The notes below the pieces were generated by a model, which was given only the letters and a program-made list of their open reading frames with translations, had not been told where the DNA came from and did no database searches. The translations under genes and the position numbers were made by a program. A stretch of 64,000 nt of DNA from assembly GCF_013488225.1 (NCBI RefSeq), contig NZ_CP041238.1, forward strand, positions 3,063,501-3,127,500. The letters are read 5' to 3'. Shown here one piece after another: positions 21,453 to 29,605 of this stretch. The stretch's first letter is position 1; each line of letters begins with the position of its first letter. The stretch is from Sinorhizobium mexicanum (GTDB taxonomy: Bacteria > Pseudomonadota > Alphaproteobacteria > Rhizobiales > Rhizobiaceae).

Positions 21453-22448
21453 TCAGTCGAGCGCTTTGAAGAAGCCTTCGCTGTCAAGCGCATCGAGCGT
21501 GCTTGTGTCGACTATCGATTCCGGCTTCACGGAGGCCGCAGCCGGCAGCGTTTTTGAAAGCTCCGCCAGGACGGCAGCCACACCCGGCATCGAGGGGCGC
21601 AGATCCTGCGGGAATACCTTCTCGGAATAGAAGCGGAACGCCTGTTCGACCGACGGTCCCTTCTCAAGTTTCAGGAACGACGCGGTTACCTCCATTGCGT
21701 CCTGCGGATTGGCACGGAAGCCGTGGAGGCCCTCGCCCATCGCCATGAAGAAGCGCTTGACGACGTCAGGGTGCCCGGAAAGGTAGTTCCTCGAGGTCAC
21801 ATAGGCGGTATTCGGGTAATCCTTGACGATCTCGGTCACGTCCACGAGCATCTTCGAGCCGGCATCGACTATTTCCTGGGTGCGCGGATATTGCGACATC
21901 AGCCCCTGGACCTGATGACTTTCATAGGCGGCCGCCCGCGTTCCCTCGCCTCCGAGCTGCAGAATGTTGACATCCGTCGCCTCGAGGCCGAGCGACTTCA
22001 GCGCGAACTTCAGGGCGGTGTCGGTCGACGAGCCGAACTTGCTGATGGCGATGCTCTTGCCGCGCAGCTGATCGGCATTCTGGATCGAGCCATCGACGAC
22101 AAGCTGGAACGGCAGTTTATTGGCCATGCTGCCGATGATGACGACATCGGCGCCGGCAACGGCCGCCGAGATCGACGGGGTGTAGCCGTTCTGGGCTATA
22201 TCAATCGAGCCGCCGACGAGCGCCTGGGTGAGCACCGAGCCACCCTCGACATAGACGAGATTGACGTCGAGGCCATGTTTCTTGAACAGGCCCTTGGCAA
22301 GCGTGTACTGGATCGGCGCACTCGTCATGGTGAAGCCGTCATAGGCGACATTCACCGTGGTCAAGGCTTCGTCCGCCGCCGCCGGCGACAGGGCGCCGGC
22401 AACGAGGCTCAACCCCGCTGCCAAAACTGTCTTCAATAGATTTTTCAT
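21453..22448 (-). CDS. ABC transporter substrate-binding protein, NMT1/SsuA-like
   Basis: The 331-residue protein starts with a Sec signal peptide (KNLLKTVLAAGLSLVAGALSPAAADE). The mature part has the SsuA/THI5 pattern: VNVAYDGFTMTSAPIQYTLAKGLFKKHGLDVNLVYVEGGS, then ALVGGSIDIAQNGYTPSISAAVAGADVVIIGSM and LRGKSIAISKFGSSTDTALKFALKSLGL. It delivers a small ligand to the adjacent permease. The presence of HyuA/HyuB suggests a cyclic amide or imide, but the fold also covers sulfonates and pyrimidine precursors. Confidence 0.88.
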   Translation of the reverse strand: MKNLLKTVLAAGLSLVAGALSPAAADEALTTVNVAYDGFTMTSAPIQYTLAKGLFKKHGLDVNLVYVEGGSVLTQALVGGSIDIAQNGYTPSISAAVAGADVVIIGSMANKLPFQLVVDGSIQNADQLRGKSIAISKFGSSTDTALKFALKSLGLEATDVNILQLGGEGTRAAAYESHQVQGLMSQYPRTQEIVDAGSKMLVDVTEIVKDYPNTAYVTSRNYLSGHPDVVKRFFMAMGEGLHGFRANPQDAMEVTASFLKLEKGPSVEQAFRFYSEKVFPQDLRPSMPGVAAVLAELSKTLPAAASVKPESIVDTSTLDALDSEGFFKALD

Positions 22449-22517: not shown

Positions 22518-23342
22518 TCAGCTAAGCAGGCTCTGCATTCGTTCCTTGTTCATGGACTTCATGAGCTGGTCGACGAGACCGTTGAGCGGCAGAGGCAACT
22601 TGACGCTCTGCGCTAGGTCGAGGGCGACGTCCATGTCCTTCTCCGCCCATTTACCGGTGCTCTTGCCCCAGCGCGACAGCGACCAGTTGGCACCGGAAGA
22701 ATGCATCAGCGCGGAGACCAGCGTCGGCACGTCGGCGCCGAGCTGCTTAGCGAGGCTGAGCGCTTCAAAATTAGCGCAAATGCAGGCCCAAAGCAGCATA
22801 TTGTTGGTCGTCTTGGCGATCTGGCCGGTGCCGCTTGGACCGATGTGCAGGATGTTGCTGCCAAAGGCCGAGAGTACCGGGCGCGCCTTCTCGAGCCATT
22901 TCGCCTCACCGCCGACGAAGACCGTCAGCGTGCCGTTGTCTGCCGCTTCCTGTCCAAGCACCACAGGCGTGTCGAGAACGCCGACGCCCTTCTCGGCCGC
23001 CTCGCGCTCAAGCTGCCGGCAGGTGTCCGGCGCGATCGAGCTCGCGATGCAGATGACCGATCCCGGTGCGAGCGAAGCGAGAAGCCCGCCATTGCCGATC
23101 ACGTCGACGACCTGCTTGTCGGTCTGCACCATGACGACGACAACCTCGGCACCGCTGCCGACCTCGGCGATATCCGCCTTGGTCGGAATGCCGATCGCCT
23201 GCGACTTGGCAGTCGCCTCAGCCGAAACGTCATAGCCGGCAACGGTGAAGCCGTTCTCCTTCAGGTGCCGGGCCATCTGGTAGCCCATCGCACCCAAGCC
23301 GACTACGCCGGCCGTCGGTTTCGTGTTCACGATTCCATCCAT
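22518..23342 (-). CDS. NAD(P)-binding 3-hydroxyisobutyrate dehydrogenase-family protein
   Basis: About 274 residues: a Rossmann motif VGLGAMGYQMARHLKENGFTVAGYD, the catalytic-domain GPSGTGQIAKTTNNMLLWA (with the conserved lysine) and a C-terminal helical domain. This is the beta-hydroxyacid dehydrogenase family. The long reading frame from 23531 is not used because ATG 23342 has an AGGAGGAAAAACA signal directly upstream. It probably oxidises or reduces a hydroxyacid in the same pathway as HyuA/HyuB. Confidence 0.85.
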   Translation of the reverse strand: MDGIVNTKPTAGVVGLGAMGYQMARHLKENGFTVAGYDVSAEATAKSQAIGIPTKADIAEVGSGAEVVVVMVQTDKQVVDVIGNGGLLASLAPGSVICIASSIAPDTCRQLEREAAEKGVGVLDTPVVLGQEAADNGTLTVFVGGEAKWLEKARPVLSAFGSNILHIGPSGTGQIAKTTNNMLLWACICANFEALSLAKQLGADVPTLVSALMHSSGANWSLSRWGKSTGKWAEKDMDVALDLAQSVKLPLPLNGLVDQLMKSMNKERMQSLLS

Positions 23343-23364: not shown

Positions 23365-25134
23365 TCAAACCGCCGCGGCCTTCGACCGCGCTGCTCGCAA
23401 TCTCTGCGTCGCCTCGTCATCGAGGCTCGGACCCTTCGGCCCTGCCACCAGCACCACGCCGTAGTCGCGTCCCGCCGCCTCGACGGAGACATACCCTTCC
23501 CTGACATCGGCAAGCACCGATCCCGGATCACGCGTCAGCGGATCGCCGTAGCCACCACCGCCCGGCGTTTCGAGTTCGAACACGTCGCCAGTCTGCAGCG
23601 GATAATCGGCGTAGCGCGAAGGCAGGCGCTTCCAGCCGTCTCCATCCGGGTTGATGCGGATGTCGCCCGTGCGTCCCGGCAGGCCGTCGGCATAACCCTC
23701 GGCCGGAATGACGTGCTTGGTCGAGCGGATCGAGAAGCGTGCCTCGGTGAGGTTCAGATATTTGCGCCGGATACCGAGTCCGCCGCGGAATTTGCCCGCA
23801 CCGCCAGAGTCGCGGATCAGCTCGAAGGCAAGCACCCGGGTCGGAAATTCGCTCTCGATGATCTCTACCGGCGCGATCTTGGCGTTGCTCTGGTTGACGG
23901 TCGTGCCCGAAGCCCCGTCGCGCGTCGAGCGCGCCCCGGCGCCGCCACCGACGATTTCGTACTGCACGTAGCTGCTGCCTGTATTCGTGCCGCGACCGCC
24001 GAGGATGATCGACCGGCTGCCGCATCCGTCGGCCCGCGAGCGATCCGGCACCACTTGCCCGAGCGCCGCGAAGATCGCGTCGACGACGGCATGCACCGTC
24101 GGATTGTAGGTATTGACCGGGGCCGGATAACGCGGATTCAGCACGCTTGAGGGCCGCGTTTCGACCGTGAAGGAGCGCAAAATACCGCTGGTGATGAAGA
24201 TGTTCGGGTCCACCAGCGAAATCAGCGCGTAGGCGCAGGCCGCCTGGACGAGCGGCGGGCGGATATTCGCCGGCCCCCGCGTCTGGTCGGCCGAGCCGGT
24301 AAAGTCGAAGCGGATGGTGTCACCCGTCTTTTCCACCCGGACATGGATGCGCACCGGCTTCGACAGCTCGACACCATCGTCGTCGACAAAGCGCTCGGCC
24401 TCGAAGACACCGTCCTTCCAGGTTTGGATGATCGCCCGCATCCGGCGCTCGGCGATGTCGCCAAGCTCGTTGAAGGCGGCGATGCATTTCGATGAGCCGA
24501 ACTTTTCCAGAAGGGCCGCAAGTCGGCGCTCGCCGAGACGCGCGGAGCCCAGCTGGCCGCGAATGTCGCCGAGCACCAGTTCCGGCGTGCGGCTGTTGGC
24601 GGCAATGATCCTCTCGACATCGCCGAAGGGCAGGTAATTGCGCTGGTAGCGCACCGGCGGCAATTGCAGGCCTTCGTTGAAGACTTCACGGGCCTGGCCC
24701 GAGCAGCTTCCCGGCACCGGGCCGCCGATATCGCCCTTGTGCGCAATGCTGGCGCAGAAGGCCACCAAGGTGTCGTCGAAGAAGAGCGGCGTGATCACCG
24801 CCATGTCCGGCGCATGCGGACTGCCGCCCTCGTAAGGGTCGTTGATCAGGAATGCGTCGCCGGGCGCGATGTCGCCGGCAAACGCCCGCAGCACCGCCTG
24901 GGTGCAGGCCGGGAAGGCGCCGATGTGCAGCGGCAGGACCACGTGCTGGGCGATGACGGCCGCGTTCGCGTCGAGCAGCGCGCACGAGGCGTCCTGCGAT
25001 TCCCGGATGATGGTGGAAAAGCCGGTGCGGAACAGCGAGTTCTGCATTTCCTGCACGATGCCGCCGAGGCTCGCGCGGATCACTTCAAGTTCGACGGCAG
25101 TAGGTCTGCCAAGCGAAGCGTTACGCTGCAGCAT
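23365..25134 (-). CDS. hyuB: Hydantoinase B / oxoprolinase-type subunit
   Basis: The 589-residue protein has the HyuB hallmarks: VIRASLGGIVQEMQNSLFRTGFSTIIRESQDASCALLDANAAVIAQHVVLPLHIGAFP, DAFLINDPYEGGSPHAPDM, RFDFTGSADQTRGPANI and a C-terminal GGGGYGDPLTRD. With HyuA it forms enzymes that open cyclic amides such as hydantoins or 5-oxoproline, often using ATP. The start at 25134 is chosen because its ATG overlaps the hyuA TGA by one base (TGATG), which implies coupling. Substrate is not determinable. Confidence 0.88.
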   Translation of the reverse strand: MLQRNASLGRPTAVELEVIRASLGGIVQEMQNSLFRTGFSTIIRESQDASCALLDANAAVIAQHVVLPLHIGAFPACTQAVLRAFAGDIAPGDAFLINDPYEGGSPHAPDMAVITPLFFDDTLVAFCASIAHKGDIGGPVPGSCSGQAREVFNEGLQLPPVRYQRNYLPFGDVERIIAANSRTPELVLGDIRGQLGSARLGERRLAALLEKFGSSKCIAAFNELGDIAERRMRAIIQTWKDGVFEAERFVDDDGVELSKPVRIHVRVEKTGDTIRFDFTGSADQTRGPANIRPPLVQAACAYALISLVDPNIFITSGILRSFTVETRPSSVLNPRYPAPVNTYNPTVHAVVDAIFAALGQVVPDRSRADGCGSRSIILGGRGTNTGSSYVQYEIVGGGAGARSTRDGASGTTVNQSNAKIAPVEIIESEFPTRVLAFELIRDSGGAGKFRGGLGIRRKYLNLTEARFSIRSTKHVIPAEGYADGLPGRTGDIRINPDGDGWKRLPSRYADYPLQTGDVFELETPGGGGYGDPLTRDPGSVLADVREGYVSVEAAGRDYGVVLVAGPKGPSLDDEATQRLRAARSKAAAV

Positions 25135-27194
25135 CACGCGACCTCCGTTACGATGAGATTCTTGAATTCGTCGATCCGAACCTGCTGGCCCGGCAGGATG
25201 ACGGTCGTGCAGTCGAACTGTTCCACGACAGCGGGGCCGGTGAAGACGAGCCCGACATCGAGGCGTTCGCGCTGGTAGACGGCGCAATCGAGATTTTCGC
25301 CGTCGAAGCGGACCGGACGGCGGCCGAGGAAGGCGTCGGCAAGCGTTCCGCCGCTCGGCCGGTAGCGCTTGGCGTTGACCGGCGGCACCAGGCCGACCGC
25401 CTTCACCCGATAGGAGACGATCTCCACGGACTCGCCCGACGCCTTGTGGCCGAACATCACTTCGTGCTCCGCATCGAACGCGCTGCGCACGGCATCGACG
25501 TCCGCGGCATCGGCAAGCGCGCCGATCGGAACGGTCAGTTCGTACCCCTGCCCGGCATAACGAAGATCGAGGGCTCGCTCGATACGGATGCGGTCTGCAG
25601 GGAAGCTTTCCTCGGCAAGATCGGCAAGCCCCTGCGCTTCCATGCCGGCGAAAATCGCGTTGAGTTCGCTCGCCGAGGCGCCGTCGAGCGGTGTCAGCCG
25701 AGAACGCACATAGTCGTGCGTGACATCCGACATCACCAAGCCCATGGCGGAGAATACGCCGGCATGCAGCGGCACGACGAGGCCGGCCATGCCGAGTTCA
25801 CGGGCTATGCGGGCGGCATGCAGGGGGCCGGCGCCGCCGAAGGGCAGCAGCATGAAGTCGCGCAGGTCGTGGCCGCGCATCGTCGAGATGGCCTTGATCG
25901 CCTCCTCCATCTTGACGTTGATGATCCGGACGATGCCTTCAGCCGCTTCGAGCACATCCATGCCGAGCGGGCCCGCCACATGGGTTTCCACGGCCTGGCG
26001 CGCCTTCTGTGCGTCGAGACGCATCTTGCCGCCGAGGAAGTTTTCTTCCGAGAGATAGCCGAGCAGCAGGTTGCAGTCGGTGATCGTCGGCTTGGTGCCG
26101 CCGCGGCTGTAGCAAGCAGGACCGGGTATAGCGCCGGCGCTTTCCGGCCCGACCTGGAGGACGCCGAAACGGTCGACTTCGGCGATCGTGCCGCCGCCGG
26201 CGCTGACCGTGTTGATATCCATCATCGGCATGGCGATGTCGCGGCCCTCGACCTTGCCGCGGTTGGCGATCACCGGCGTGCCGTTCTTGATCAACGCCAC
26301 GTCGCAGGACGTCCCGCCCATGTCGAAGGTGACGATGTCGTGGTAGCCGGTCGAACGCGCCATCGCGACACTCGCCGTCACGCCGCCTGCGGGACCGGAA
26401 AGCACGGTAGTGACGCCCTTCTTCGCCGTCGCGTCGAAGGTCGCCATGCCCCCGTTCGACTGCATGATGTATTTCTGCGGCGTCTTCACGCCCGCCGCTT
26501 CCAGCCGGTCGGCAAGCCGCGCAATGTAGCGGGCGAGAACCGGCTGCAGGTAAGCATTGATCACCGTCGTGCTCAGCCGGTGATATTCGCGGATCTGCGG
26601 CACGATTTCGGACGAAAGCGAAACCTCGCAGCCCGGCAGTTCCTCGCGGATAATCTCACGGATCCGCTCCTCGTGGCGCGGATAGAGGAACGAGAAGAGC
26701 AGGCAGACGGCAACGGATTCGATGCCCTGGCCGCGGAGTTCGGCAAGCGTCTCGCGGAGTGCGGCTTCATCAAGCTCTGCAAGGACGCTGCCGTCGTGAA
26801 CCACGCGCTCCGATACTTCGCCGGTCAGCGACGGAAGCACGATCGGCGCGGGCTTTTCATAGAGGATATCGAAGATCGCCGGCCCATGCGGACGCGCCTG
26901 TTCGCCGACTTCGTAGATACCGCGAAAACCTTTGGTCACCAGAAGCCCGGTCTTCGCCCCCTTGCCTTCCAGGAGCGCGTTCGTCCCTACCGTCGTGCCA
27001 TGGCAGAAGTAGCTCACATCGTCCGGGCGCACGCCGCGCTCCAGGAGAATATCGATCCCGGACAGGATTGCCCGCGATGGGTCGTCCGGCGTCGACGGAA
27101 CCTTGGAAATCGACGTTTCTCCCGTCGTTTCGTCGAGATAGACGAAGTCCGAAAACGTCCCGCCGGTGTCGACGGTCACGCGATAGCCTCCCAT
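25134..27194 (-). CDS. hyuA: Hydantoinase A / oxoprolinase-type ATPase subunit
   Basis: The 686-residue subunit begins with the ASKHA-like phosphate-binding motif VTVDTGGTFSDFVYLDE and contains GTTVGTNALLEGKGAKTGLLVTKGF, DMGGTSCDVALI, MDINTVSAGGGTIAEVD and the metal-associated FGGAGPLHAARIARELG. Length is normal for HyuA. GGGAGGCTGCCGC precedes the ATG. A 177-base gap separates it from two upstream LysR genes on the same strand and is the likely promoter of the operon. It acts with HyuB; the presumed pathway is hydrolysis of an imported cyclic amide. Confidence 0.88.
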   Translation of the reverse strand: MGGYRVTVDTGGTFSDFVYLDETTGETSISKVPSTPDDPSRAILSGIDILLERGVRPDDVSYFCHGTTVGTNALLEGKGAKTGLLVTKGFRGIYEVGEQARPHGPAIFDILYEKPAPIVLPSLTGEVSERVVHDGSVLAELDEAALRETLAELRGQGIESVAVCLLFSFLYPRHEERIREIIREELPGCEVSLSSEIVPQIREYHRLSTTVINAYLQPVLARYIARLADRLEAAGVKTPQKYIMQSNGGMATFDATAKKGVTTVLSGPAGGVTASVAMARSTGYHDIVTFDMGGTSCDVALIKNGTPVIANRGKVEGRDIAMPMMDINTVSAGGGTIAEVDRFGVLQVGPESAGAIPGPACYSRGGTKPTITDCNLLLGYLSEENFLGGKMRLDAQKARQAVETHVAGPLGMDVLEAAEGIVRIINVKMEEAIKAISTMRGHDLRDFMLLPFGGAGPLHAARIARELGMAGLVVPLHAGVFSAMGLVMSDVTHDYVRSRLTPLDGASASELNAIFAGMEAQGLADLAEESFPADRIRIERALDLRYAGQGYELTVPIGALADAADVDAVRSAFDAEHEVMFGHKASGESVEIVSYRVKAVGLVPPVNAKRYRPSGGTLADAFLGRRPVRFDGENLDCAVYQRERLDVGLVFTGPAVVEQFDCTTVILPGQQVRIDEFKNLIVTEVA

Positions 27195-27371: not shown

Positions 27372-28322
27372 TCAGGAAGACGTCCCGAGGATCTCGAACC
27401 GCGGATCGACGATGATCGCGTAAGGGGCCGAGGCGCGACAGATGTGACGGACCACGTCCTTGAGGAACGGCCCGATGAGTTCGTCTTCCAGAAGCGAGCG
27501 CTCCTCGCGCCGGCTCACCATGTAGAGCGTGCGGCTCGGCACGGGACGCTCGATCCTGCGGATGGCGAAGATGCCGCGACTGACGCCGTCGGCGACGCTG
27601 CCATAGGGCAGAAGGCTGGCGCCGCCTTCGGCAATGCGCGCCCGGATCGCCGGCACCGACTGCATGTCCGAAACGATACGCGGTTCGAGCGAGAGGCGCT
27701 GGGCCATGCGGCGGACAAGCGTAACGATGCCACGCTCGCCGGCGAAGAAGAGCTCTTCTTTAAGAGCGTCGGCAAAGCTGATGGAGCTGTCGTCCGACGC
27801 ATTGGCCCGCGCCGTCACGAACAGCAGCTCGTCCTCGATCACTGCCTCCCGCACCAGCCCTGGACGTCCCTCGACGTCGTAGGCGAAAGCGAGGTCGATC
27901 TCCTTGCGCTCGAGCGCGGCGATCAGCGCGAAGCTAAGCTCTTCTACCAGTTTCAACGATGTCGCCGGCAGCTTCGTCCCCGCCGCAATCAACACGTCGG
28001 CGCCGACAAGGCGCATATGGCTCGGGACGAGGCCGATGACGAAGGGCCGCGGAGCCGGGCTGCCGGCGGCGGAGCGAACGTCATCGAGCGTCCGCTCCAG
28101 GAATCGCTCGAGTTCGTTGTAGCGCTCGTACAACACCTCGCCGGCCTTCGTCGGCACCACGCCGCGCGAATGCCGCTCGAACAGGCTGACGCCGATCTCG
28201 CGTTCGAGGTCGCGAATCTGAATGCTGATCGCGGTCTGGGCAAGCTTGAGCTGGGCCGCCGCATGCGACATGCCGCCGGTTTTGACCACCATCGCGAAAT
28301 AGCGCAACTGCCGAAGGTTTAT
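27372..28322 (-). CDS. LysR-family regulator 1 of the hyu cluster, apparent ATA start
   Basis: With the start proposed here the protein has 316 residues and begins I(M)-N-L-R-Q-L-R-Y-F-A, which restores the whole first helix of the LysR helix-turn-helix (continuing AMVVKTGGMSHAAAQLKLAQTAISIQIRDLE). The reading frame has TGA only two codons before the ATA at 28320-28322, so no ATG, GTG or TTG is available upstream. GGGGAGG lies 7 bases before the ATA. The next usual start, TTG 28307, lacks an SD at proper distance and cuts into the helix. The ATA overlaps the TAA of the upstream LysR gene as ATAA. Function: probably controls hyu and transporter genes. Confidence 0.8.
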   Translation of the reverse strand: MNLRQLRYFAMVVKTGGMSHAAAQLKLAQTAISIQIRDLEREIGVSLFERHSRGVVPTKAGEVLYERYNELERFLERTLDDVRSAAGSPAPRPFVIGLVPSHMRLVGADVLIAAGTKLPATSLKLVEELSFALIAALERKEIDLAFAYDVEGRPGLVREAVIEDELLFVTARANASDDSSISFADALKEELFFAGERGIVTLVRRMAQRLSLEPRIVSDMQSVPAIRARIAEGGASLLPYGSVADGVSRGIFAIRRIERPVPSRTLYMVSRREERSLLEDELIGPFLKDVVRHICRASAPYAIIVDPRFEILGTSS

Positions 28323-29278
28323 GGCTCAACCTCCCCATGTCGACGTGGCAGGACGCTGCCGATCAGGCTGCCGTATGGCCCCATCCTCTCGGCAAGCCGC
28401 CCAATCATCCTGTCGAGAAAAGCGAGCAGCGCCGTCTCGTGAACGAAAGACACGGCATCCGACATGCGGTTGAGGAAGAGCGTGCGCTTGATGGACGGCT
28501 GGCGGATCGGACAGGCGACGATCAGCCCCTGCTGGATTTCCTCCGCCACCACCCCATAGGGCACCACGCTGGTGGCCGCTCCCCGCGCGACCAGCGTCTT
28601 GATCGCCGGCATCGACTGCACCTCGAAGGCGACGTTTACGGGAAGCTTTTGCCGGCCGGCGACGTCGTGGATCAATCGCCAGACGATATCGCGGTCGCTG
28701 ACGAGCGCGAGGTCGGTGCGGATCGCCTCCTCGAAGGAGATGGATTCCCCGAGCACACGGGACCCGGCACCCGCGACGAACAGCAATTCCTCCTCGATCA
28801 GCGCCGTCGCGGCAAGCCCGGGACGGTTCTCGAACTCATAGGCAAGCGCAATATCGAGCTCGCCGCGCATGAGCGCGTCGATCAGGATGAAGCTCAACTC
28901 CTCGACGACGCGGAACGAAACGTCCGGGATCTCGTCGCGGGCGGCAAGGAGGAGTTCCGGGCCGATCAACGCCTGGATGCTGGGCGTAACGCCGAGATTG
29001 ACAACCTCTCGCCTCGCCGCCCCATGCGCCATCACCTCCCGGCGCGCCTCCTCGACGGAACTGAGAATGGCAAGCGCATGCCGGTGCAAGACTTCCCCCG
29101 GCTCGGTCAGCGAAATCCCGCGCGAATGGCGAACCAGAAGCCGGACGCCGAGCGATTCTTCCAGATGCCTGATCTGCTGGCCGAGCGCCGTCTGCGCGAC
29201 ATTCATGCTCTGTGACGCCCGGGTGATATTCCCGGTCTCGACCACCTTCACGAAATAACGAAGCTGCCTGAGATTAAT
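28319..29278 (-). CDS. LysR-family regulator 2 of the hyu cluster, apparent ATT start
   Basis: The proposed 319-residue protein begins I(M)-N-L-R-Q-L-R-Y-F-V-K-V-V-E, the same N-terminus as its downstream paralogue, then TGNITRASQSMNVAQTALGQQIRHLEE (helix-turn-helix) and a LysR effector domain (PSIQALIGPELLLAARDEIPDVSFRVVEELSFILIDALMRGELDIALAYE). GGGAGGAGACC precedes the ATT at 29276-29278. Upstream in frame there is no ATG, GTG or TTG before TAG at 29312-29314. The conventional choice, GTG 29251, removes nine residues of the first helix. It overlaps the next LysR gene by four bases. Confidence 0.8.
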   Translation of the reverse strand: MNLRQLRYFVKVVETGNITRASQSMNVAQTALGQQIRHLEESLGVRLLVRHSRGISLTEPGEVLHRHALAILSSVEEARREVMAHGAARREVVNLGVTPSIQALIGPELLLAARDEIPDVSFRVVEELSFILIDALMRGELDIALAYEFENRPGLAATALIEEELLFVAGAGSRVLGESISFEEAIRTDLALVSDRDIVWRLIHDVAGRQKLPVNVAFEVQSMPAIKTLVARGAATSVVPYGVVAEEIQQGLIVACPIRQPSIKRTLFLNRMSDAVSFVHETALLAFLDRMIGRLAERMGPYGSLIGSVLPRRHGEVEP

Positions 29279-29605
29279 GGTCTCCTCCCAAATCCACGGC
29301 CCGCGGCGATTCTACCGTTCGCGGTGCCGAGCATGCAACGGCGTTCTAGGTTTCGACCTACGGCCACGACTGGTCAAGCTTGGTGCGGCGAAGCAGCGAT
29401 GATTGCTTGGTCAGCGGTTTGGATGATTTCTACCATGATCTCCCACGCCAACGAGGAAGATGACTATGGCCACTGATCGCTGCGGCGGCCAGCGGGACCA
29501 GACGAAACTCTATCCTCGGCGCCGTCTTCGATGAAATTGCATTGGAGCGGGTGAGCTCGGGGCGTCGAGCTTGAGGCTCAGGTTCTCACGGGCCTCGCTG
29601 GAGCG
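29279..29605. other. Intergenic region upstream of the LysR pair
   Basis: No convincing gene, RNA or strong hairpin is visible. A possible very short reading frame starting at ATG 29463 behind GAGGAAG stops after about two dozen codons and resembles nothing known. Confidence 0.5.

Follow-up and report, generated by a model that had tools for sequence, protein, structure and literature searches.

Two adjacent LysR genes with putative ATT and ATA start codons

Two adjacent genes for LysR-type regulators, here called LysR1 and LysR2, were analyzed on the minus strand of a 64,000-nucleotide (nt) stretch of the Sinorhizobium mexicanum genome (assembly GCF_013488225.1, contig NZ_CP041238.1, positions 3,063,501 to 3,127,500; the window, to which coordinates refer unless a contig or locus is named), and both appear to be translated from isoleucine codons. 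The LysR1 coding sequence (CDS; 28319..29278, 319 amino acids) begins with ATT (29276..29278) and ends with TAA (28321-28319), and the LysR2 CDS (27372..28322, 316 amino acids) begins with ATA (28320..28322), which overlaps the LysR1 stop codon as ATAA. Read from these codons, each gene encodes a complete LysR regulator that passes both Pfam cut-offs (HTH_1, residues 3-62 in LysR1, and LysR_substrate), with the N-terminus INLRQLRYF common to both proteins. Position 1 of HTH_1 falls on residue 3 in LysR1 as well as in LysR2, and the alignment of solved LysR-type chains begins at residue 2 or 3 in 20/22 cases.

The LysR1 5' end reads GGGAGGAGACC followed by ATT-AAT-CTC-AGG-CAG, and its Shine-Dalgarno (SD) sequence GGGAGGAG (29282..29289) lies 3 nt from the ATT, or 5 nt when counted from the GGAGG core. 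The LysR2 5' end reads GGGGAGGTTGAGCC followed by ATA-AAC-CTT-CGG-CAG, with the LysR1 stop codon TAA sitting in the ATAA, and its SD GGGGAGG (28330..28336) lies within the LysR1 coding region, 7 nt from the ATA. The SD duplexes are predicted at -11.8 (LysR1) and -12.8 kcal/mol (LysR2), and both SDs are strong, as the initial annotation had described. Upstream of the ATT, the LysR1 frame is open to TAG (29314-29312) with no ATG, GTG, or TTG in between, and the LysR2 frame has a TGA (28328-28326) that leaves a single codon (GCC) before the ATA. The window sequence also agreed with that annotation on the two start codons, the shared N-terminus, the upstream stops, and the ATAA overlap.

Conservation of the pair

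LysR1 orthologues were identified in 7/33 genomes of the genus, the window's own (G000) included (G, C, L, and f numbers are our handles for genomes, contigs, loci, and families). The other six carriers were S. chiapasense (G006), S. terangae (G020 and G048), S. psoraleae (G013), Ensifer sp. IC3342 (G003), and Sinorhizobium sp. 6-70 (G004); G020 and G048 are almost identical, so the independent Sinorhizobium count is closer to six than seven. One of three Ensifer adhaerens plasmid records was opened, and on this plasmid (p1, NZ_CP083351.1) the pair stands ahead of hyuA and hyuB with ATT and ATA starts likewise. Over these eight records, the ATT of LysR1, the ATA of LysR2, and the ATAA overlap were each kept in 8/8, and the comparison with relatives that the initial annotation had proposed returned no ATG or GTG orthologue of the pair. 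A single transition from ATAA to ATGA would give LysR2 an AUG start and LysR1 a TGA stop, and it is present in 0/8 records. Upstream of the LysR1 SD, the leader has diverged among the orthologues and contains indels, yet the block from the SD to the ATT is conserved.

The interval between the upstream stop and the start was free of ATG, GTG, and TTG in 4/8 records for LysR1 and 7/8 for LysR2; where upstream conventional codons were present their distances differed, and none was common to the orthologues. For LysR2, one codon separates stop and ATA in 4/8 records and four codons do so in two more. Median dN/dS (nonsynonymous to synonymous substitution rate) was 0.104 for LysR1 and 0.07 for LysR2 (21 pairs each), indicating purifying selection. 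A census of the motif ATHAAYCTNMGNCARCTN in the 33 genus genomes gave 12 matches, all at LysR1 or LysR2 orthologues, and 0 for the reversed control; it undercounts, missing INFRQL and INDRQL members as well as the LysR2 of G000 and G004 (TTG at codon 6). Scanning the genome contigs with a single protein gave eight loci, of which four were orthologues.

Two further observations concern the 5' ends of the pair. Codons 2-21 of LysR1 (29216-29275) varied synonymously at 2/20 sites compared to 114/239 elsewhere (p=0.0008; six genomes), hinting at constraint at the RNA level near the start, and the early codons of LysR2 showed a weak trend only (4/18 synonymous sites varying versus 118/262; p=0.08). 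In E. adhaerens, the annotation opens LysR1 at a TTG (L101:5956), six codons before the ATT, and LysR2 at a CTG (L101:6936), two codons past the ATA; given the conserved codons, both annotated starts seem wrongly placed, and they illustrate an annotation blind spot for such codons.

A LysR clade with apparent ATT, ATC, and ATA starts

The initial annotation had confined the feature to the tandem pair, which proved correct for the pair and too narrow for the feature, as isoleucine-codon starts (ATT, ATC, or ATA, hereafter ATH) belong to a wider LysR clade. A third LysR gene of the genome (C4:1412283-1413188, minus strand; L032/L131), 40% identical to LysR1, starts with ATA-AAT-TTT after GGGAGGAACGTCAC and is neighbored by IclR and thiamine pyrophosphate (TPP)-enzyme genes. 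In the S. terangae orthologue, an in-frame stop lies upstream with no conventional codon between it and the ATA, and the leader contains indels; the orthologue in G004 was left unread. More members with the same anatomy were found in G049 (ATT), G701 (ATT), G117 (ATC), G399 (ATC in two genes, G399a and G399b), G1120 (ATC), G1434 (ATC), and G559 (ATA), bringing the ATH-start LysR genes to 27, from 14 genomes plus one plasmid record (families f1, f6, and f35), and among them all three ATH codons are used. In this wider search 30 loci-bearing matches of 84 were read, and the order, class, and family searches used strict E-value limits at which weaker members may be missed; genus and family searches around G701 returned no members beyond G701 and G559 within those limits.

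In 7/11 ATH lineages (LysR1, LysR2, the C4 gene, G117, G559, G399b, and G1434b), at least one genome had no ATG, GTG, or TTG in the open stretch preceding the ATH codon. Only three open codons precede the ATH in G1434b and five in G399b, none of them a conventional start, and the codon preceding the ATH is not conserved.

With the first nine residues excluded, phylogenetic trees placed every ATH row within one 39-row clade (support 99/91 and 98/93 in the two trees); the second tree omits both G048 rows, near-identical to G020, which the first contains. The clade in the second tree comprised 25 ATH and 14 conventional rows with seven state changes between them, compared to a mean of 16.2 when the states were shuffled (0/500 shuffles as low). 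An ATH ancestor implies six changes below the node and a conventional ancestor eight, so that an ancient ATH origin, followed by later reversions to AUG, is favored by a modest difference and with moderate deep support. Among the clade's rows, neither GTG nor TTG turned up as a start codon. Four of its members carry an upstream methionine codon, as ATG-ATH-AAR in G602, G381a, and G491 and as ATG-CAC-ATC in G192, which looks like a return to AUG through a new upstream ATG. The nearest LysR1 paralogue in the genome (C4 replicon, 49% identical) has an ATG start in 6/6 genomes.

Shine-Dalgarno strength and controls outside the clade

The predicted energy of SD pairing, calculated with what we take to be the anti-SD sequence, had a median of -11.5 kcal/mol in ATH genes (n=14) versus -4.6 kcal/mol in AUG genes of the clade (n=9; p=0.0004), data that are partly dependent by descent. 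Taken with one gene per lineage, the contrast gave p=0.002 (11 ATH versus 6 AUG). The median was -5.65 in 40 other LysR genes of the genome (p=8e-6 versus ATH), and the spacing between SD core and start codon was 4-9 nt in the 13 ATH members listed.

LysR1 and LysR2 resemble LysR-type regulators at large in their HTH_1 and LysR_substrate domains and differ from ordinary LysR genes in their starts, as all 40 further LysR genes sampled in this genome had an ATG, GTG, or TTG no more than 9 codons before or 2 codons after the aligned position. These controls were taken in list order from 81 non-clade matches with three skipped, namely C2:353716, with scores identical to C2:276833, and C1:3488734 and C1:1945362, for which no reason was stated. 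Homologues outside the clade, defined as such by score with 9/50 placed in a tree, were conventional in 50/50 distinct cases (33 plus 17, after two repeats were dropped) and ATH in 0/50. One LysR-like match in the same genome (L183; G000:C4:365416-366300, minus strand) contains an internal TGA and is possibly a decaying gene.

infC and published precedents

The infC gene of the genus reads as an ATT start after GAGGAGAGTACGACC in 30/30 loci (L148-L177), which came from 30 of the 33 genomes and were all read; 25/30 have no upstream in-frame ATG, GTG, or TTG and 5/30 have one at least 15 codons upstream. The ATT in every locus suggests that AUU initiation by these ribosomes is probably in ordinary use. 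In the literature consulted, bacterial genes with AUU, AUA, or AUC starts were few (infC, pcnB, ccpN, cvfC1, citZ, and lepA). In E. coli, infC (under autocontrol by IF3) and pcnB start at AUU (PMC1780047, PMC9410913), and autocontrol of infC in Sinorhizobium is presumed here by analogy. The LysR genes resemble these two in having an AUU start on a gene that would be translationally limited, and differ from infC, where the negative feedback acts on IF3 itself, in that they regulate other genes.

The closest precedent is Staphylococcus aureus, in which infC and ccpN have AUA starts and cvfC1 an AUU start, with an extended SD (PMC13009471). Reporters of cvfC1, ccpN, and citZ reached ~10% of the AUG level in poor medium; in rich medium the ccpN AUA rose to as much as 30% of AUG, while the effect of medium was absent for the cvfC1 AUU and modest for the citZ AUA, and the ccpN start is conserved in Bacillus subtilis too (PMC13009471). 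The likeness to ccpN and cvfC1 lies in proven or possible regulators with a conserved weak start, a strong extended SD, and low translation relative to AUG; the difference is that those are single, non-LysR genes supported by ribosome profiling and reporters, whereas the present case is an alphaproteobacterial LysR clade with a tandem pair, three AUH codons (AUU, AUC, and AUA), and comparative evidence only (PMC13009471). Enterobacterial carbohydrate regulators (lacI, cra, and mlc) likewise have conserved non-ATG starts, and in E. coli the GTG of lacI has a fitness effect (PMC11445065); unlike here, the start there is GTG rather than AUH, and the main text of that source mentions neither LysR nor AUU. 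For the alphaproteobacterium Caulobacter crescentus, 0.25% of CDSs begin with other near-cognate codons, a genome-wide tally that names no regulator clade in the passage concerned, in a text that mentions neither AUU nor AUA (PMC4117421). A search of the open-licence PubMed Central (PMC) literature found no paper pairing LysR with AUU, AUC, or AUA starts, a scope that does not establish absence from print. Conserved AUA or AUU starts on regulators are thus known (ccpN), and a LysR clade with tandem use of them looks new.

Probable initiation at AUU and AUA as a conserved weak start

That ATT and ATA are the actual start codons of LysR1 and LysR2 is strongly supported by comparative sequence evidence, since both are conserved, follow strong SDs, have no other start in common among the orthologues, and belong to genes under purifying selection. 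We consider it probable that the two genes encode functional LysR regulators initiated at AUU and AUA, and that this is an old, selected weak start which keeps their output low. The strong SD pairing would set the AUU or AUA in the P site, where the initiator tRNA would pair with a third-position mismatch, and the product would be a scarce regulator with a normal N-terminal methionine and an intact first helix. LysR2 would probably also be supplied by coupled termination-reinitiation at the ATAA, as the overlap suggests. In clade members near catabolic and transport genes, AUU, AUC, or AUA could all serve, the strong SD compensating while regulator number stays low.

Several findings weigh against this interpretation. 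The 14 conventional rows of the clade, ten having an ATG aligned with the ATH codon and four an ATG placed one or two codons before it, show that members can do without the weak start, and the deep branches of the trees are only moderately supported. Weaker SDs precede the ATH genes G399b (-6.9) and E. adhaerens LysR1 (-7.3); conversely, SDs are strong before the AUG of G174 (-10.9) and in a sister group that starts at GTG (-10.9 to -11.8), which argues against simple compensation. An upstream in-frame conventional codon occurs in at least one genome of 7/11 ATH lineages, and single cases could start there: for LysR1 in 4/8 records (nearest at 6-20 codons), for LysR2 in E. adhaerens (TTG, 64 codons), for the C4 gene in G000 and S. 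chiapasense (GTG, 15 codons), and in G049 (TTG, 11), G399a (ATG, 12), G1120 (GTG, 8), and G701 (GTG, 75). In the last four the SD is nevertheless placed at the ATH codon. The proposal in the initial annotation that the starts are deliberately weak is supported by many clade members retaining them one base from AUG, but other members use AUG.

Whether the weak start mainly sets a low regulator level, as we infer, or serves as a regulatory input is a separate matter. On the second, doubtful but possible, account, free IF3, its own gene autocontrolled through AUU, would shift the levels of LysR1 and LysR2. This account draws on the ATT of infC in all 30 loci, on the use of three AUH codons with no GTG or TTG in the 39-row clade, and on the S. 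aureus ccpN AUA, whose output climbs in rich medium from ~10% to as much as 30% of that of AUG (PMC13009471); against it stand the lack of a medium effect for cvfC1 AUU and the modest one for citZ AUA in the same paper. The SD compensation, with weak SDs in most AUG members, agrees at least equally well with a fixed low set point, and the strong SDs of the ATH genes argue for a held level over a response. Moreover, autocontrol should keep IF3 nearly constant. IF3-sensitive expression of the pair, as put forward in the initial annotation, is plausible, with the infC ATT in 30/30 loci as its ground. Only tentatively can the idea be extended to the whole clade, in which case this alphaproteobacterial LysR family may have kept the IF3-discriminated AUH class, rather than any single codon, since its common ancestor and would read IF3, or the state of initiation, alongside infC. 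The clade offers natural replicates for asking why inefficient starts persist, through fixed low dosage or IF3-dependent control.

Turning from the purpose of the weak start to its position, it is very improbable that translation begins upstream and that the ATH is an internal isoleucine codon, conserved as a residue and hence drifting among isoleucine codons. The methionine codons just before the ATH in G602, G381a, G491, and G192, the annotated TTG of E. adhaerens LysR1, and the upstream codons in 7/11 lineages would fit such a start. However, the short intervals before LysR2, with one codon after the stop in 4/8 records and four in two more, leave little room for it, and neither the three open codons in G1434b nor the five in G399b include a conventional one. 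The codon before the ATH is unconserved and the leaders have indels and no common start. For LysR2, G399b, G1434b, G559, and G117 an upstream start fails unless an even stranger codon initiates.

Initiation downstream, at GTG 29251 (LysR1 residue 10), TTG 28307 (LysR2 residue 6), or ATG 28292 (LysR2 codon 11), has similarly little to recommend it. These codons are in frame, and the GTG at LysR1 codon 10 and the ATG at LysR2 codon 11 are the same in all eight records. The TTG is unconserved, however: 5/7 Sinorhizobium genomes have CTG there, and E. adhaerens has CTT. As the initial annotation held for the GTG and TTG, a downstream start removes part of helix 1 of the helix-turn-helix, in conflict with the Pfam and solved-chain alignments beginning at residue 2 or 3 (the ATG would cost the first ten residues, most of the helix), no SD lies at a proper distance by eye, and the strong conserved SDs would lose their role. 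Sequencing error, a strain mutation, or pseudogene decay after loss of an ATG is exceedingly unlikely, being ruled out by the same codons in eight records and by median dN/dS of ~0.1 or less. A -1 frameshift fusing LysR1 into LysR2 was rejected, as inspection of the junction by eye revealed no slippery site.

Gene context

LysR1 and LysR2 head a same-strand cluster in the order LysR1, LysR2, hyuA, hyuB, a 3-hydroxyisobutyrate-dehydrogenase-like gene, an NMT1/THI5-like gene, an ATP-binding cassette (ABC) ATPase, a permease, and a short-chain dehydrogenase/reductase (SDR), the ABC ATPase and permease being identified by eye from the translated sequences. The hyuA-like hydantoinase/oxoprolinase A gene (25134..27194, minus strand; PF01968 and PF05378), whose order is kept in E. 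adhaerens p1, is the probable target. It is followed on the minus strand by the hyuB-like hydantoinase B/oxoprolinase gene (23365..25209, 5' end approximate; PF02538), the 3-hydroxyisobutyrate-dehydrogenase-like gene (22518..23336, 5' end approximate; PF03446 and PF14833), and the gene for the NMT1/THI5-like substrate-binding protein (21453..22448; PF09084). Control of the hyu genes by LysR1 and LysR2 is suggested by the synteny LysR1-LysR2-hyuA-hyuB, also present in E. adhaerens. A search of 21 context loci for hyuA and hyuB found them in two, L250 of Sinorhizobium and L101 of E. adhaerens, and the hyu link is thus no feature of the clade as such.

Other ATH members adjoin genes for TPP enzymes (G701 and the C4 gene), class II aldolase (G399b and G1434b), and ABC transport (G049, G117, and G399a). 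For G559, three neighboring open reading frames gave no Pfam match, perhaps because the wrong frames were taken. A LysR gene lies directly upstream of the clade member in both G701 (L233:4759-6940; member with ATT) and Antarctobacter heliothermus (L103:2699-4897; member with ATG).

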